A stretch of 64,000 bases of DNA from Thalassotalea marina (GTDB lineage: Bacteria > Pseudomonadota > Gammaproteobacteria > Enterobacterales > Alteromonadaceae), in NCBI RefSeq assembly GCF_014656435.1, contig NZ_BNCK01000004.1, positions 310,001-374,000 of the forward strand, in the 5' to 3' direction. The notes beneath the pieces were generated by a model. That model saw only the letters and a list, made by a program, of their open reading frames with translations, did not search any database and was not told the DNA's origin. Position numbers and translations under genes: made by a program. This document shows, piece by piece, positions 5,803-43,528 of the stretch. Numbering within the stretch: the stretch's first letter is position 1; each line of letters begins with the position of its first letter.

Positions 5803-6984
5803 TTATGCCTCTTGCTCTGATACCTTAACGGCTTGGTCATCCTTTAACTTATCTAGTGCTCGTGCTGGGCCAATGATCACTTTGTCTCCAACATTTATGC
5901 CTTTAGTTACTTCCTGTAACCTATCATTTGAGATACCTAATTCAACAATGCGCTTGTGCGCTTTACCATCAACTAGCACAAACACGTGGCTTTCATGGTT
6001 GTCTTGTTTAGTGGCATCTTTTTCGTTTTCACTAGAAATAACAGACTCTGTTGGTACCGCTACCGTCTCTGATTTTTGTTGAGTATAAATTTCTGCCCGG
6101 CAACTCATACCTGGTCGAACAGCGACGTCTGCAGCATCCTCTAACAATATTTTAACGGTAAAACTTAAACCTTGACGCCCCAACGCCCTCTTCGCCGATG
6201 TTGCTATATTTTGTACTGTTCCTGTTAACGGTGTATCAGGAAATGCCACAGCAAAAATATCTGCGCTTTGGCCGACACTCACATTGGCAATATCAGCTTC
6301 ATCAACTTCAACTTCAATAAGGATGTTTGACGGATCCGCTAAAGTGATCAGATCAGAGCCAACTATATTTGTTGTGCCACTGATTGCCGTTTCACCTTCT
6401 TTAATATCAACAGAAGTGGCGATACCATCAATTGGCGATCTAAATACCGTTTTTGATAACCTTTCTTCTGCTTTATCAAGTGCCGCTCGAGCTTGAGCTA
6501 AAGATTCTTGGCGAGATCTTAAGTCAATTTTTGCCAAAGCGTATTGGTTGTCTATTTGCTCGTAAGCATCTTGATCTAAGATTTTACGTTTAAATAGATC
6601 ATGTTTTCTCTGCCATTGAGCCTTTAAGTTTTCTAACTGTTTCTTTTGACGTTCAATGGCAATAGTCTGAATTCTAACAAATGCCGCTTGTTGTTCTACG
6701 TCAGCTTTAAAGGCTTTTGGCTCAAGTCGCATTAACACTTGGCCTTTTGATACCGGATCACCCTCTTCGATTAACATTTCGCTTACGCGACCTATCACTT
6801 CAGAGCGTAATTGCACTTGTTCTTTGTAAACCAAGGTACCAGAGGCCAAGATTGAGCTTTTTATTTCTTCAAGTTGAACTTCTGCCACCTTTACTTCAAC
6901 ATCAGATGACTGGCCTGTTTTTTTGAAGTAAGCAGTGGCTACAAGAGCCACTGCCACTAAAGTGATAATTATCGCTTTTTTCAT
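5803..6984 (-). CDS. MacA-like periplasmic adaptor (HlyD/RND family)
   Basis: Membrane-fusion protein that would join the MacB-like permease to an outer-membrane channel. It begins with a membrane anchor (MKKAIIITLVAVALVATAYF), then a lipoyl half-motif (VIGRVSEMLIEEGDPVSKGQVLMRL), a coiled-coil hairpin at about residues 85-165, the second lipoyl half (FRSPIDGIATSVDIKEGETA), and beta-barrel and membrane-proximal domains. The ATG at 6984 has a GGTGA site seven bases upstream and starts the signal anchor, so the longer frame to 7026 is rejected. It lies 11 bases after the Yip1 gene. No outer-membrane factor is in this operon, so a shared TolC-type protein is likely. Confidence 0.9.
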   Translation of the reverse strand: MKKAIIITLVAVALVATAYFKKTGQSSDVEVKVAEVQLEEIKSSILASGTLVYKEQVQLRSEVIGRVSEMLIEEGDPVSKGQVLMRLEPKAFKADVEQQAAFVRIQTIAIERQKKQLENLKAQWQRKHDLFKRKILDQDAYEQIDNQYALAKIDLRSRQESLAQARAALDKAEERLSKTVFRSPIDGIATSVDIKEGETAISGTTNIVGSDLITLADPSNILIEVEVDEADIANVSVGQSADIFAVAFPDTPLTGTVQNIATSAKRALGRQGLSFTVKILLEDAADVAVRPGMSCRAEIYTQQKSETVAVPTESVISSENEKDATKQDNHESHVFVLVDGKAHKRIVELGISNDRLQEVTKGINVGDKVIIGPARALDKLKDDQAVKVSEQEA

Positions 6985-12336: not shown

Positions 12337-14616
12337 CTAAAAAACGGCAATCTCGTCGATATATAAAGGTAATAACGGGATCTGCTTATCAAAAGATTGT
12401 TTTTTGTTTTTGGCAATAACCTTAACATAACGAGCTGAAATCGTATCAAAATTTAAGCGAATTACCGGTTGTTCAACTTCAACGCCATTTATATATTTTA
12501 CTTGTTGCCACTGTTGACCATCATTTGAATAATAAACAGCAATAGAATCTGGTGGTACTAACTGACGGTGGCGCCCCGCATTTACTCCCATAATGATCTG
12601 AGAAACCGATTCGTTGTGTTCAAAATCAATGATGGCTTCCATATCTTCACCATAAAATACCGCAAACTGATTTACATCATAGTATTGGTCGTAAGCAAAC
12701 ACACCATCGTTGATCTTAACTTTTGAGTCACCACTTGGTTGGTTTGTGAAGATGATATTTTTTCCAATAGCTTTATGCGGCGTTACGGTCAGTGTTAGTG
12801 GTAAAGACAGCATATCTTGATATTGCGCTTGCACCTTTATCGTTTTCATTTCATTTAATGCAACATTTCCGTTGTTGTCGATATTAAGGCTTTTTATTTG
12901 TTCTGTATCACTCATAGCATCATAGGCTAATACGTTTAATTTAGACTGGCTTAAACCGGACGTAATGTTGAGCAGCATCCTTGTAGGTGTCGCCTCTTCA
13001 ATACGAATGTTTGGCGTTAAGAACGAGTAACTAGCATTGATGTTCATCGCTTGATATCGACGAATAATGTTTGGTAAGTTTTGTTGAAATCTCGACCAAT
13101 TATCGTTGTTGCCCCATGCAACATTAGCTAAAGCTGATAAGCGAGGAAACACCATGTACTCGGCGTGTCGGGCTGTTTTTATATATTCAGTCCACAATGC
13201 TCCTTGCACCCCAATAATTAATTGTTGTTGCTCAGTTGTTAGATCATCTGGCACAACCTGATAACCATATACCTTGTCAATTGGCAAAAAGCCATGAATT
13301 GCTTTGGGCTCTTCAACTGAGCGAGATTGGTAGGCATCAAAATAAGTAAATTCATACGGTGTCATTATTGCTTTGTGACCACGTTTGCTAGCGTTAATGC
13401 CCCCCTCAATACCTTGCCAAGATGTGATCATTGCATCACTTGGGGCGCCACTGGCCAAAATTTCATCCCAGCCCACTAGCGTTTTATCATACTTATTCAA
13501 CAATTTCGCTACTTGCTGAATAAAGTAACTTTGCACATCATCACCGCTAGTTAAGTTTTCTTTCACCATTAACTGTTGAACAAAGGGACTTTCAAGCCAC
13601 TGCTCTTTAATAACCTCATCACCACCTATGTGTAAAAGTTTTGATGGAAACAACGCAGAAACTTCAGCAAATACTTTATCTAAAAAGCTAAAAGTTTCTG
13701 CTGTTGGACACAGTACTTGAGGAAAAATACCAAATTGCCCTTCTACGTGAACGCTTTGTTTGTGACAAGAAAGTTCTGGGTATGCTGCTAAAATTGCACT
13801 TGAGTGTCCAGGAACATCAATTTCAGGTAATACTTCAATATGACGAGCATTAGCATATTCAATTACGTCTCTAATTTGCTCTTGTGTATAAAAACCTTTG
13901 TGCACTTTTCCGTCAAACAAGGTTTTATAGTCATAGGTATGACCAACAACGGTATGAGCTCGCTTACCGCCAATTGAGGTTAACTTGGGAAAGGCTTTAA
14001 TTTCTATTCGCCAACCTTGATCGTCAGTTAAGTGCCATTGAAACTTGTTAAATTTGTGAAACGCTAGCCAGTCAATATACTGTTTAACAAAAGAAACAGG
14101 ATAAAAATGCCGGCTTACGTCTAAATGCATTCCTCTGTAGGTGAATTTAGGCTGGTCGCTGATATTTACCTGAGGTATAGACCAATAAACCTTGTTAATT
14201 GGCATACGACTCTCTATATCTTTAGGCATTAATTGCCTTAATGTTTGCACACCATAAAACATCCCTTCTTCACTTGAAGACTCTATGACGATTTTGTTTT
14301 CACCGACATGTAATCGATATGCCTCATTTTCCATCCCTTGTACATATTGAAATCGAACTTGGTTTTGAGCTAGGGATTGTGTTTGTTCAAACAAATAGCC
14401 AGTGGGAGGTTGTAAAAAAGAAGACAGCTCTTGGGCAGCATGTTTTCCAATATTAGATGATAGATAAATTTTTGTTTGGCTGTCGAGCTTGAATTGACCT
14501 TGTTGCCATTCAACTTGCGTTGGGTAGGGAAACAAAGGTGGATAATGAGTTTTAGCGAAGGCACTAGTAAAAATAGTCACACCAAAAATCATCAATAGTA
14601 ATAAATAGAACTTCAC
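12337..14616 (-). CDS. Beta-N-acetylhexosaminidase, GH20
   Basis: A secreted or periplasmic enzyme that removes terminal beta-linked GlcNAc or GalNAc, for instance from chitooligosaccharides or glycans. It has a signal peptide (1-21), a GH20b-like domain (about 25-150), and the catalytic barrel from RGMHLDVSRHFYP (161-173) with HLTDDQGWR. The Asp-Glu catalytic pair is D333-E334 in HIGGDEV, for substrate-assisted catalysis. The last 150 residues look like a beta-sandwich carbohydrate-binding domain (F5/8-type or CHB_HEX_C). The start is a GTG at 14616 with AAGGA seven bases upstream. It lies between two TonB receptors, suggesting that the imported ligand is an amino-sugar glycan. Confidence 0.93.
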   Translation of the reverse strand: MKFYLLLLMIFGVTIFTSAFAKTHYPPLFPYPTQVEWQQGQFKLDSQTKIYLSSNIGKHAAQELSSFLQPPTGYLFEQTQSLAQNQVRFQYVQGMENEAYRLHVGENKIVIESSSEEGMFYGVQTLRQLMPKDIESRMPINKVYWSIPQVNISDQPKFTYRGMHLDVSRHFYPVSFVKQYIDWLAFHKFNKFQWHLTDDQGWRIEIKAFPKLTSIGGKRAHTVVGHTYDYKTLFDGKVHKGFYTQEQIRDVIEYANARHIEVLPEIDVPGHSSAILAAYPELSCHKQSVHVEGQFGIFPQVLCPTAETFSFLDKVFAEVSALFPSKLLHIGGDEVIKEQWLESPFVQQLMVKENLTSGDDVQSYFIQQVAKLLNKYDKTLVGWDEILASGAPSDAMITSWQGIEGGINASKRGHKAIMTPYEFTYFDAYQSRSVEEPKAIHGFLPIDKVYGYQVVPDDLTTEQQQLIIGVQGALWTEYIKTARHAEYMVFPRLSALANVAWGNNDNWSRFQQNLPNIIRRYQAMNINASYSFLTPNIRIEEATPTRMLLNITSGLSQSKLNVLAYDAMSDTEQIKSLNIDNNGNVALNEMKTIKVQAQYQDMLSLPLTLTVTPHKAIGKNIIFTNQPSGDSKVKINDGVFAYDQYYDVNQFAVFYGEDMEAIIDFEHNESVSQIIMGVNAGRHRQLVPPDSIAVYYSNDGQQWQQVKYINGVEVEQPVIRLNFDTISARYVKVIAKNKKQSFDKQIPLLPLYIDEIAVF

Positions 14617-40295: not shown

Positions 40296-40328
40296 TCAAA
40301 AAAAAGGCACTTTCGAAAAAGTGCCTTT
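40296..40328 (-). terminator. Rho-independent terminator of the collagenase-cohesin operon
   Basis: A perfect 11-bp stem (40303-40313 with 40318-40328), CGAA-type loop, and a T-run on the minus strand. It follows the cohesin-like gene by about 20 bases. Confidence 0.9.
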
Positions 40329-40349: not shown

Positions 40350-40922
40350 TTATAGTAAAGTTCTACGCCTCGACCTTGAAAAGAAAACAGCTACCAACGT
40401 TAAGGCAAATAATAAACCAACATGTGGCTCGTCAACTGTTACAACAGAAAAGTTTGTGCTCATCTGTGAAAAGCTCTCTATTGTTGCGTTATCGAAGCTA
40501 ATCAACTCTAAGCCATTTAACAAACTAACACTGTGTACACCTAAAGTCACTGCGGTAAACGTAAAGCTCGCTAAAACAAAACTTGTACCTTGTTTGCTTG
40601 CAATCACCACTTCATCAGCAAAAAAATCCGCATAATCTTCTAATGATAACCTGCCTGAAATGCTGTCATCAGCAAACGAATAACTACCAAAGCCATCATC
40701 AAAACCGGATCCAAATTGCCAAGTTTCAAGCGCCAATTGATTATGGTCAAAAGCTATTTCACCAGCAAAGCCGCCTAAAGTATCATTTAAGTCATGCGCA
40801 ATAAGTTGCCCTTGAATTAGTTCTCCTTGCTGATATTGAGCTTTATCAAAAGTTAATGTGATTAATGTAGCTTGACTGCAAAAGCTTATAAACAATACCA
40901 ACATGCCTATTAGTTTTTTCAT
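40350..40922 (-). CDS. Cohesin-like domain protein with PEP-CTERM-type anchor
   Basis: A 190-residue exported protein. It has a signal peptide at 1-18 (ending SQA), then a cohesin-like beta-sandwich at about 19-160: TLTFDKAQYQQGELIQGQL, LGGFAGEIAFDHNQLAL (the strand pair typical of cohesins, followed by the value-of-property strand), and VLASFTFTAVTLGVHSVSL. The C-terminus is a PEP-CTERM-type sorting signal: DEP at 164-166, a hydrophobic helix at 168-181 and RSRRR at 183-187; the canonical VPEP is VDEP here. It is 19 bases downstream of a collagenase that ends in a dockerin, so it may hold that enzyme on the cell surface. The domain calls rest on visual pattern; no exosortase is in the window. 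Confidence 0.75.
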   Translation of the reverse strand: MKKLIGMLVLFISFCSQATLITLTFDKAQYQQGELIQGQLIAHDLNDTLGGFAGEIAFDHNQLALETWQFGSGFDDGFGSYSFADDSISGRLSLEDYADFFADEVVIASKQGTSFVLASFTFTAVTLGVHSVSLLNGLELISFDNATIESFSQMSTNFSVVTVDEPHVGLLFALTLVAVFFSRSRRRTLL

Positions 40923-40941
40923 TTTATTCTCCTAATTATAT

Positions 40942-43278
40942 TTATTGTGAGATCACACAACGTGGTAAATCACATGTCGCCATCATTGCTCTTACGTCAC
41001 GTCTATCAACGAGCCCGTCTTGATTAAAATCATATTGCAGATCAATATCTGATGAGGTTTTTAATAAAGAAATGAACAGGTTAATATCTCGTATATCAAC
41101 CTGATTGTTACCGTCTAAATCGGCTGGGTTTGGCTCGATGCCAGAACAAATGCCTTCGCCTTCAACCAGACACACCAACCATTGTGTAAATTCATTGTCA
41201 AATGACGTACCCCAAGATTCTAGAATTTCACTATAAGGGGTAAAACTTGGAACCTCAGTATCTTCAGGCTCTGGTTGACCGCACGTCCATACCCAACTTC
41301 CTGACGACCATTCACTATCGTCATACGCCCAATACCAACTATTTTCAATGGCTTCTTGTTTTAACTTCCAACTCCATTCAAATTGACATTCCCCTGTCGC
41401 AACAACATATTTAGGAGCACGAAAGTTGGCTAGTAAGTCACCTTCCACAGCAGACGCTTTGTTTTCCATCATAAAGCGCGTAGCTAAATACCCCCAATAA
41501 TAGGTTCTGCTGGTATCGCTATTTTCGTAAGTTGTTTGGAATAACTCACTTAGAGAATATGTGCCTTGAGTTGCTACTGCTAACGCGTTTGGATTGTTGT
41601 TGGGCTGAGACAAATATTCAGCTAGCCCCTCGCCCCACCAAACGGTATTCGCTGGTTGGTCATTAAATCCGCCCCATTTGTTAAATCGGCCATCTAAATA
41701 GTGAATATATTCATGTTCTAGATTCCAAACTTTAAAATCAGGCAGCCAAGTCGCTTGATGTGCAATAAAACGAGCCTGATTACCGTTAGCCCATGGAGTT
41801 CCTTCTAAATACATGCCTCCGTTGTCAGTATTTATGCCAAAAAAGCTCCCTGCATAATTATCATAATCGGAATATGAACTAAAAATAACTACTTCTAGGT
41901 CTTCATTGTTATCATTGGCAACTGGCGCATTGGATTGTGTATTAAAGAGTTGGTGAAATTCTTGTTCTTGACCCGCTAAACTCGCACAGATTCCAATAAG
42001 ATTCTCGTTACTAATTGGTTTTTGGAATCGCAACTTTAACGTCGTACTACAAACGTGATTACCAGATAAAATTGCAGCCTCTAAATCAAAGCTGCATGCA
42101 TCTCCATACAGTTCACAGTTTTGGGCATCATAGTGAGTGACAGCTGCTTGGGCCTTCAACCAGCCTGAACTTCCAGCTCCCTGATAGGAATAGCTCTCTA
42201 ATACACCTTGAATTGTGGGTCTTACAGATTGTGCAATTGTTCCACCGTATCTTAAGAAACGACTTAACTCATTAACCGCGTCTCCCCATTGATATTCTCG
42301 GGTATGGCCAACTAACCACAATCCTTTATTACTCACAAAATCAACAAGATTTTGAATGATTTTTGGGTTAGCCAATACAGCTTGCTCTAATGCCTGAGTT
42401 TGTTGTTCTGAAGCATTAAACAAGTGTGTTAAAACTTGCGTCAGTCCATTTTCTTCATAATACACACCCCAATCATTATTTGTTGACACGGTTTCCGCGT
42501 AGCCAATCAAAGCATCCGTTAGACGAGGCAAAAATTCAATATTGTTCGTTCCTGAGCTTCTTAACAGAATGAGCATTTCGTAACGAACCATAAAATTTCT
42601 GGATGCCTGGCCTTTAAAATTAGTAAAATGCGTTCCGGCAAAATACAAGTTAAAGGCTTGCTTTAAAGTGTCTTTATATTCCTGAGTAAATTGCCTGTTA
42701 TTGCCCCACTCTGCCCAATGCATTGCTCTAAGGTAAATCACCAACTTTTCTAACTCAGCTGCCCCTGTTTGTTCAGTACCATCATATTCAGCAAGGTGAT
42801 CTACGATTCCTTGGGCAATAGATTGAATACTAGCGTCAGAAAATAATGACGTACCAACAAAGTTCGAGTTAAATAAACCATATAAACAAGTAGTTAAGTT
42901 TCCTGACTTCACAGCTGTAATCAGTGCCTGACCAGTTAAGCCTTCAAGTTCATTGGGCGAGCTACAACCTATCGATACCGCTGTTAAGCTATCACTCGTC
43001 TTAGATTCTAGTGCTGTTTTTGTATGCTTCGTCAGATAAACATCGTCAATAGAATGATTATTTTGCAAAAGTAATTCGAATTGTTTTGGTGAAACTTGTC
43101 TTGGCGGGTTAAATCCAACGGTATCATTTTTACTTAAGCGATGCATATGATCAGCAGATAATTTTTGTCCTGTCGCTTTCGTGATTATGTCTACGCTATC
43201 CTGCATTGCATATGCGTTGCCGTAAGTAACAGCGCTTAGAATAATCGATGGCAACAACAAACGGTTTTTATTTTTCAT
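40942..43278 (-). CDS. Secreted M9 collagenase with C-terminal type I dockerin
   Basis: A 778-residue zinc metalloprotease. It has a signal peptide (1-24, ending AYA) and an N-terminal M9 activator-like domain (about 100-400, helical repeats). The catalytic domain has HEYIH (H522, E523, H526) and the third zinc ligand E554 in WWGEGLAEYL; the 28-residue spacing to E554 equals that of clostridial collagenase G. The expected PKD/PPC tail is absent. Instead residues 720-731 and 750-761 form two dockerin calcium loops (DLDGNNQVDIRD and DFNQDGLVDRRD). The next gene encodes a cohesin-like protein, its probable partner. The 18-bp palindrome at 43331 may control it. Confidence 0.88.
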   Translation of the reverse strand: MKNKNRLLLPSIILSAVTYGNAYAMQDSVDIITKATGQKLSADHMHRLSKNDTVGFNPPRQVSPKQFELLLQNNHSIDDVYLTKHTKTALESKTSDSLTAVSIGCSSPNELEGLTGQALITAVKSGNLTTCLYGLFNSNFVGTSLFSDASIQSIAQGIVDHLAEYDGTEQTGAAELEKLVIYLRAMHWAEWGNNRQFTQEYKDTLKQAFNLYFAGTHFTNFKGQASRNFMVRYEMLILLRSSGTNNIEFLPRLTDALIGYAETVSTNNDWGVYYEENGLTQVLTHLFNASEQQTQALEQAVLANPKIIQNLVDFVSNKGLWLVGHTREYQWGDAVNELSRFLRYGGTIAQSVRPTIQGVLESYSYQGAGSSGWLKAQAAVTHYDAQNCELYGDACSFDLEAAILSGNHVCSTTLKLRFQKPISNENLIGICASLAGQEQEFHQLFNTQSNAPVANDNNEDLEVVIFSSYSDYDNYAGSFFGINTDNGGMYLEGTPWANGNQARFIAHQATWLPDFKVWNLEHEYIHYLDGRFNKWGGFNDQPANTVWWGEGLAEYLSQPNNNPNALAVATQGTYSLSELFQTTYENSDTSRTYYWGYLATRFMMENKASAVEGDLLANFRAPKYVVATGECQFEWSWKLKQEAIENSWYWAYDDSEWSSGSWVWTCGQPEPEDTEVPSFTPYSEILESWGTSFDNEFTQWLVCLVEGEGICSGIEPNPADLDGNNQVDIRDINLFISLLKTSSDIDLQYDFNQDGLVDRRDVRAMMATCDLPRCVISQ

Positions 43279-43330
43279 TACGTATCCTTTCTGTTTTTAT
43301 CGTTGTTTTTTGTTGAGCGAGCAATTTGAT

Positions 43331-43348
43331 TATATTGTATACAATATA
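43331..43348. promoter_or_regulatory. Perfect 18-bp palindrome upstream of the collagenase operon
   Basis: TATATTGTATACAATATA is identical to its reverse complement. It is 53 bases before the collagenase start codon. The core TTGTATACAA resembles operators of FCD-type GntR regulators, but no such gene is adjacent. Confidence 0.55.
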
Positions 43349-43528
43349 TTGATCAACATTTATTTGTGTGATTTTTGTTCATGATAAAAAATGAATGGTT
43401 TCTTGAACGCAACTAGTGACGCTGCAGTGAAGAAATGCATTGAGTTCCAGCCAAAAGTTAACTAAAACTCATGTCTGTCTTAAAGATGACGTTGCAAAGG
43501 ATAAAGTAGCAGGTAACTGTGAACTGGT

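Follow-up and report, generated by a model that had tools for sequence, protein, structure and literature searches.

The type I and type II cohesin–dockerin systems of cellulosomes join a two-loop dockerin borne by an enzyme to a cohesin partner on a surface-directed protein, and cellulosomes are anchored through SLH or sortase. Cohesin and dockerin modules also occur scattered outside cellulosomes, where their function is stated as not known in a passage of PMC5244752 that cites Peer et al. 2009. For PEP-CTERM proteins, the relevant passages of Haft et al. 2006 (PMC1569441) propose that they cross the outer membrane and add protein to extracellular material, describe them as a varied set that shows scant homology to known proteins, and place 90% of EpsH homologues near exopolysaccharide genes. 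Here we analyse a window of 64,000 nucleotides from Thalassotalea marina (contig NZ_BNCK01000004.1, positions 310,001–374,000), whose minus strand carries an M9 collagenase gene with a C-terminal dockerin (product P0002) followed by the gene of a small cohesin-family protein (P0001) with a PEP-CTERM-like sorting tail. Both genes had been taken for a protease-tethering unit in an initial annotation made from the sequence alone. We consider it probable that an exosortase-sorted protein with a single cohesin (the socket) holds exoenzymes equipped with a dockerin (the plug) on the cell surface or within the matrix. The case is built on computed sequence families, on the order of the genes and its conservation, on the co-occurrence of exosortase and on alternative tails in homologues.

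The collagenase gene and its cohesin-family neighbour

The first gene of the pair (40,942–43,278, minus strand) encodes P0002, a protein of 778 residues assigned to the M9 collagenases from its open reading frame (ORF) and from Pfam and PDB searches. Two Pfam models score above their curated cut-offs, namely Peptidase_M9_N (PF08453, 68.5 bits, cut-off 23.9) at residues 108–293 (42,400–42,957, minus strand) and the catalytic domain Peptidase_M9 (PF01752, 285.8 bits, cut-off 26) at residues 360–625 (41,404–42,201, minus strand). The HEXXH motif, present as HEYIH inside the M9 domain, and a signal-like N-terminal stretch were recognized by eye. Against the PDB, residues 117–611 best match the M9 collagenase unit of 7esi (E 1e-76), which we take, together with 7wss, to be a Vibrio-type M9 collagenase.

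P0002 ends in a type I dockerin (residues 719–765; 40,984–41,124, minus strand), identified by Pfam Dockerin_1 and by two calcium loops read by eye, both of which are intact and lie where they were initially annotated. Loop 1 (residues 720–731, DLDGNNQVDIRD) carries D1, D3, N5, D9 and D12, and loop 2 (residues 750–761, DFNQDGLVDRRD) carries D1, N3, D5, D9 and D12; the D or N residues at positions 1, 3, 5, 9 and 12 and the helix-length spacer between the loops are those of a dockerin. The Dockerin_1 model (PF00404, cut-off 22.9 bits) scores 19.8 bits on the whole protein, below its cut-off, and 24.8 and 25.7 bits, above it, on the dockerin stretch alone. After the second loop comes a C-terminal Cys-x4-Cys tail, CDLPRC (residues 769–774; 40,957–40,974, minus strand). 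Across 39 aligned dockerin tails, 36 of which match PF00404 at E ≤ 0.1, the two tail Cys columns are invariant and position 3 of loop 2 is N in at least 90%. We regard the Cys-x4-Cys tail, on the evidence of such alignments, as a mark of this dockerin subfamily. The motif C-x(3-7)-C lies within 8 residues of the stop in 100 of 100 parsed pair enzymes (below), a count that is partly selected because the dockerin search profile included the tail.

The second gene (40,350–40,922, minus strand) begins after an operon-like intergenic gap of 19 nucleotides (40,923–40,941, minus strand), with coordinates, strand and spacing as first annotated. Its product, P0001, has 190 residues, in which a signal-like N-terminus is followed by about 140 residues and then by a tail of DEP, a helix and RSRRR. 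Single-sequence searches were useless for this protein: P0001 alone retrieved a single irrelevant PDB match (E 1.3), and Pfam Cohesin run over the whole genome found nothing at E ≤ 0.001. Its relation to cohesins is therefore visible through family profiles only. Profile A4 comprises 18 sequences, P0001 and close relatives, 16 of the 18 being collagenase-linked; profile A1 comprises 37 diverse partner sequences, P0001 included. All 16 distinct PDB sequences that A4 matches at E ≤ 10 are cohesins (best E 1.5e-8), A1 likewise retrieves cohesins (best E 1.6e-16), and the best match of both is 3l8q, a two-cohesin fragment of the cellulosomal scaffoldin adaptor protein B, presumably from Acetivibrio. 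Prostaglandin synthase chains that appear in the A1 list from E 6e-4 upwards, over at most 68 profile positions, were dismissed as chance matches because none occurs in the A4 search. Pfam Cohesin at E ≤ 1 finds 31 of the 37 A1 members (best E 6e-6) and 16 of the 18 A4 members, P0001 not among them. From the profile positions that align to solved cohesins, the cohesin-like domain spans roughly residues 20–160 (40,443–40,865, minus strand). We thus assign P0001 to the cohesin family by family-level homology, an assignment that is not callable from its single sequence, and the annotated cohesin domain is borne out at that level. Profile searches support the annotation outright for Peptidase_M9 and, for Dockerin_1, with the isolated stretch and not with the whole protein; for Cohesin they fail with P0001 alone. 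The lone NCBIfam match to P0001, NF038118 (CCXG), was rejected as its family (16.5 of 90 bits, C-terminal part only).

A search of the same genome for further dockerins and cohesins, as the annotation had proposed, uncovered a second unit. On contig 8, an 845-residue protein with LTD and endonuclease/exonuclease/phosphatase domains and a dockerin is encoded 12 nucleotides from a 164-residue cohesin-like partner (G000:C8). The nuclease belongs to the ExeM/NucH family (NCBIfam NF033681, 619 bits). P0001 matches the partner of this unit at E 4.7e-5, and that partner in turn matches Pfam Cohesin at E 0.0016, below the model cut-off. The nuclease and collagenase units of this genome reside on separate contigs.

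The short gap and the element that follows the second gene give the collagenase unit an operon-like layout, in line with the organization originally annotated. A terminator-like hairpin with an 11-pair stem, a 4-base loop and a T run lies just 3′ of the cohesin gene (40,303–40,328, minus strand), in a region with 4 terminator-like sites against a mean of 2.2 in shuffles. Upstream of the collagenase gene there is a weak promoter-like site (43,329–43,356, minus strand; 10 of 12 matches), and such sites are not above chance in the region (12 against a shuffle mean of 10).

Pairing across genomes and the range of enzymes

We compared 196 genomes of the same family as the source. Dockerin tails were searched with a dedicated profile (A3) and intersected by coordinates with cohesin-like matches; all counts for the dockerin, cohesin-like and M9 profiles below are among the 150 matches listed for each. 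Homologues of P0001 at E ≤ 0.001 occur in 47 of the 196 genomes, the dockerin tail in 106 and the A1 cohesin-like partner in 141, although weaker matches of the last kind may include other PEP-CTERM proteins. The initial annotation had staked its reading on the pair being adjacent in related genomes, and the pair recurs. At 28 of 30 loci with a P0001 match (L007–L036), that match immediately follows a gene whose product ends in a dockerin. A cohesin-like match follows 104 of the 150 dockerin matches on the same strand, at most 400 nucleotides downstream, and lies within 5 kb of 117 of them; the immediate pair is present in at least 74 of the 196 genomes. The contrast is sharpest for the collagenases: a cohesin-like match lies within 3 kb of all 17 dockerin-tailed M9 genes and of only 2 of 133 M9 genes without a dockerin, both of which sit beside a dockerin-tailed M9 gene.

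Cohesin-like matches left unpaired number 38 of 150 (37 by a plain distance count). Among the 18 that were examined, 15 adjoin a gene with the dockerin pattern and a 16th (L236) does so when judged by eye; in G074 (L029/L057) the next gene has one dockerin-like loop near its N-terminus, and in G021 (L024/L054, same genus) the cohesin copy is truncated and has no dockerin neighbour. The dockerin pattern was found in 16 of 116 ORFs in the regions of 16 such unpaired matches; the window has it in one of its 49 ORFs, the collagenase. The G021 copy (L054, 5423–5755) is a signal-less remnant in a genome that has no M9 among the matches listed, which suggests joint loss of enzyme and socket. At 50 loci, 43 dockerin-tailed genes were paired with the nearest short gene, some genes lying in two overlapping loci; at L056, the cohesin-like gene is upstream of the dockerin-tailed gene with another gene between them. 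The search was also extended to 369 genomes of the class, three of which are shown as belonging to the same family. In six others a dockerin match reaches E ≤ 1e-8, and two of these (L114 and L115) have the pair; their partners score E 0.0086 and 0.00044 with Pfam Cohesin.

The 104 pairs correspond to 103 regions, one gene (G112:C3) having two dockerins, and 100 of them were parsed after L171, L174 and L204 were dropped. They fall into 17 enzyme groups that were named from representatives, further members being labelled by blastp link only. The largest comprise 50 nuclease-like, 16 M9 and 8 BNR_4 enzymes; smaller ones comprise 5 of a porphyranase group, 4 M43, 4 without a catalytic match (one member scanned) and two groups of two. 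Nine groups are singletons, including GH98, a lambda-carrageenase, a metallophosphoesterase and a protein with an IgGFc-binding domain. The parsed partners have 160–234 residues, which leaves room for one domain each. No scaffoldin with several cohesins, usually accompanied by a CBM in cellulosomes, was found; specifically, the lack of any Pfam Cohesin match at E ≤ 0.001 in the T. marina genome indicates that it has no classical scaffoldin. By homology and gene order, then, the same plug-and-socket design appears to serve many enzymes, and most plug genes have a socket gene adjoining. The putative tethering unit of the initial annotation would be one case of a design that goes with nucleases, proteases and polysaccharidases, and its protease-only frame is too narrow.

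Several loci depart from the simple two-gene order. L061 (2961–16163, G176:C9) has four dockerin-tailed BNR_4 genes with one cohesin-like gene (13251–13784), possibly forming a multi-enzyme surface complex, and also a short PEP-CTERM-type gene without a Pfam match (6107–6619). At L159 (957–2147, G112:C3), a 396-residue protein with two tandem Pfam dockerins precedes a cohesin-like gene and could bridge two sockets. Nuclease and collagenase units are neighbours at L045 (3128–14879) and L046 (4817–16557), in two genomes of the same genus, with dockerins about 8.4 kb apart. In Rheinheimera baltica DSM 14885 (L006, 3426–6570), an LTD/EEP dockerin nuclease and a cohesin-like gene are 4 nucleotides apart when the longest ORFs are taken. 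A cassette that recurs at L221, L222, L227, L228, L231 and L235 contains a dockerin-tailed protein of about 580–620 residues (with a two-component-regulator-type propeller match in L221), a cohesin-like gene, short and of the PEP-CTERM type, and a gene whose C-terminus, judged by eye, looks like that of a TonB-dependent receptor; five of the six loci add a gene of about 360–390 residues, with a PD40 propeller in L222. The arrangement is reversed at L223 (2–4927), L230 (3760–10317 and 12862–18477) and L057 (2976–5369), where large proteins of 797–2185 residues have a dockerin-like stretch near the N-terminus (in L057, a single matched loop) and a short PEP-CTERM-type gene adjoins. Finally, the proteins of 1440–1538 residues encoded at L064, L073, L074 and L076 have their dockerin at the C-terminus or close to it and adjoin no cohesin-like gene; they are candidate partners of sockets whose genes lie at other sites in the genome.

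Proposed sorting and tethering, and alternative explanations

The tail of P0001 (residues 164–190; 40,353–40,433, minus strand), read by eye, comprises a DEP variant of the PEP motif, a hydrophobic helix and RSRRR. Its layout is that of the PEP-CTERM-type signal initially annotated, except that the first P of PEP is D and that Pfam PEP-CTERM gives no match. A loose pattern of motif, helix and basic end is present in 98 of 100 parsed partners, and Pfam PEP-CTERM at E ≤ 1 finds 20 of the 37 A1 family members, P0001 not among them. The T. marina genome has 18 PEP-CTERM matches at E ≤ 0.1, 14 of them above the cut-off, and both of its cohesin tails use DEP. It also encodes one exosortase (E 1.4e-73), the enzyme that the annotation had proposed to look for.

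Exosortase presence follows the pair. An exosortase is found in 151 of the 196 genomes, comprising 74 of 74 with an immediate pair versus 77 of 122 others, and in all 47 genomes with a direct P0001 match. Five dockerin-positive genomes are without it; in the three examined (L058–L060), the dockerin is non-terminal and no such partner adjoins. A parallel contrast with rhombosortase is uninformative because TIGR03902 is above its cut-off in 192 of 196 genomes.

The best argument for a tethering role comes from nuclease homologues, in which the dockerin sits where some relatives bear a direct anchor. Among 30 homologues, which are loci among the best matches, 14 end in a dockerin. A short PEP-CTERM-type gene is next to 13 of these 14 and to none of the other 16, and an exosortase is present in 14 of 14 genomes versus 5 of 16. 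Four of the 16 nucleases without a dockerin have an anchor-like tail of their own (recognized in three by a GlyGly-CTERM-like pattern and in L099 by eye), and none of their four genomes has an exosortase; the other 12 have other ends. For Shewanella ExeM, which has a GlyGly-CTERM-like tail, a section of PMC6085458 reports the protein in the cytoplasmic-membrane fraction, partly even with the tail removed.

These observations are consistent with the following mechanism. The collagenase would be exported and fold with a calcium-loaded dockerin at its C-terminus as the plug. The downstream gene would supply the socket, a small exported protein made up of little more than one cohesin and a PEP-CTERM-like sorting tail; the exosortase of the genome would process this tail and pass the socket to the envelope or to exopolysaccharide. 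By binding the plug, the socket would retain the collagenase on the cell surface or within the matrix, so that its products become available for uptake. Dockerin–cohesin binding, its calcium dependence, exosortase processing and the final location are what we infer here from sequence. For the putative surface-holding role proposed in the initial annotation, the cohesin family, the dockerin, the operon-like layout, the exosortase and the adjacency all speak in favour; the restriction to proteases is too narrow. That the whole family uses a general modular display, in which any secreted enzyme can receive a dockerin plug and is placed on the envelope or in the matrix by a dedicated exosortase-sorted single-cohesin socket encoded beside it, as a scaffold-free, exosortase-based Gram-negative counterpart of the cellulosome, seems to us somewhat better than an even chance. 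In such a display the socket might even act as the adaptor by which the enzyme is sorted and delivered.

Sequence distances between dockerins and cohesins are correlated over the 100 pairs (Mantel r 0.60; 0 of 2,000 permutations as high), within the 16 M9 pairs (r 0.80) and within the 50 nuclease pairs (r 0.69; partial r 0.44 after allowing for catalytic-domain distance). The pairs thus co-diverge, and several sockets in one cell may therefore be orthogonal. Position 11 is R in both loops of 14 of 16 M9 dockerins and varies among nuclease dockerins. Loop positions 10 and 11 are recognition positions of type I dockerins, and the pattern hints at separate specificities.

Several points weigh against tethering by a socket. 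P0001 alone has no Pfam match at E ≤ 10, PF00963 included; the Pfam PEP-CTERM model does not find P0001; and neither of the two cohesin tails of the genome is among its 18 PEP-CTERM matches. Pairing in cis is not universal, since 33 of 150 dockerin matches have no cohesin-like match within 5 kb, and in four of the six genomes of other families no partner lies in the short flanks covered (the L112 flank ends with the contig). The distance correlations fit contact between the two proteins yet are no proof of it, because genes of one operon are inherited together. The Fisher values, 1.6e-20 for the M9 genes with and without a dockerin and 9e-5 for exosortase among the nuclease genomes, overstate independence, because genomes of one family share ancestry.

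The alternative that survives best is a variant compatible with the tethering mechanism, in which sorting would deliver the socket to the matrix of exopolysaccharide or biofilm, so that the enzyme is held there and not on the envelope. Passages of Haft et al. 2006 (PMC1569441) favour it through their PEP-CTERM proposal and the location of EpsH near exopolysaccharide genes; we hold this variant to be possible, if doubtful, and it would alter the place while leaving the plug-and-socket mechanism unchanged.

We judge it unlikely that the partner is instead a sorting or secretion carrier, which would bind the dockerin enzyme in the periplasm and exit by the exosortase route, with release possible afterwards. 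In favour of a carrier, each of the 100 parsed pair enzymes terminates in its dockerin and Cys tail and so lacks an anchor of its own at the C-terminus, the four nuclease homologues with an anchor-like tail come from genomes without exosortase, and every genome with an immediate pair has one. The 33 dockerins without a nearby cohesin-like match argue against such a carrier. Export by routes other than the exosortase is the general rule for such collagenases and nucleases, which also counts against it, no search for type II secretion having been made.

It is likewise unlikely that the dockerin and partner do not bind; the dockerin would then be a calcium domain that confers stability, and the partner would have another role, such as inhibiting its exoenzyme or helping it to fold. 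The failure of P0001 alone to match Pfam Cohesin would fit this explanation. However, one partner family accompanies unrelated enzymes (nuclease, M9, M43, porphyranase, lambda-carrageenase and GH98), the element common to the paired enzymes is the dockerin and not the catalytic domain, and M9 enzymes without a dockerin have a partner nearby only in the two cases that adjoin a dockerin-tailed M9 gene. The accidental proximity of EF-hand-like acidic repeats and a beta-sandwich protein, or an annotation artefact, would accord with the weak single-sequence scores but has a negligible chance of explaining a pair that recurs in at least 74 genomes of one family and at L114 and L115 in other families of the class.

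Tethering by an exosortase-sorted socket, if true, would give non-cellulosomal cohesins and dockerins, as well as PEP-CTERM proteins, a concrete role in one-socket enzyme display. Such display might account for the way in which these bacteria retain collagenase, DNase and polysaccharide-degrading enzymes nearby, and would offer protein engineering many natural, perhaps orthogonal cohesin–dockerin pairs.

Comparison with known systems

In the open literature searched, PEP-CTERM was nowhere found together with dockerin or cohesin, and no paper was found that describes an exosortase-sorted single-cohesin socket for dockerin enzymes; an earlier mention in Peer et al. 2009 or Haft et al. 2012 is possible. 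A word search shows that cohesin and dockerin are absent from Haft et al. 2006 (PMC1569441). PMC5244752, on methanotrophic archaea, mentions exosortase and dockerin and, in the passages concerned, discusses them separately. The combination of cohesin, dockerin and collagenase led to papers judged unrelated, and words for Proteobacteria, protease and marine are absent from PMC11557425, on cellulosome diversity (word search). What appears to be new, judged by sequence families and gene order, is a scaffold-free cohesin–dockerin pair joined to PEP-CTERM-type C-terminal sorting, in a form wider than the collagenase case.

The units share with the non-cellulosomal cohesins and dockerins their occurrence outside cellulosomes, but here the two modules form matched neighbours linked to sorting by exosortase. 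With the Vibrio-type M9 collagenases (7esi and 7wss), P0002 has the M9 collagenase unit in common; the usual tail of M9 collagenases is PKD/PPC, in place of which P0002 carries its C-terminal dockerin. P0001 resembles proteins of the PEP-CTERM/exosortase (EpsH) system in its signal-like N-terminus, its C-terminal motif, helix and basic end, and the exosortase of its genome. It differs in the DEP variant missed by Pfam and in that what is sorted probably binds a dockerin.

The exoenzymes of the GlyGly-CTERM/rhombosortase type, such as Shewanella ExeM and Vibrio VesB, likewise have a C-terminal device for cell association (for ExeM, a section of PMC6085458), and ExeM is of the same ExeM/NucH nuclease family as the nuclease of the second T. 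marina unit. In those cases the anchor is part of the enzyme, whereas in the present units the enzyme bears a dockerin and a separate cohesin protein has the sorting tail. In comparison with cellulosomes, the two-loop dockerin on the enzyme and the cohesin on a surface-directed partner are the same. Different are the single cohesin per partner, with no repeated-cohesin scaffold seen, the Cys-x(3-7)-Cys tail of the dockerins, the Gram-negative-type sorting tail, and the enzymes themselves, which are nucleases, collagenases, other peptidases and algal polysaccharidases.

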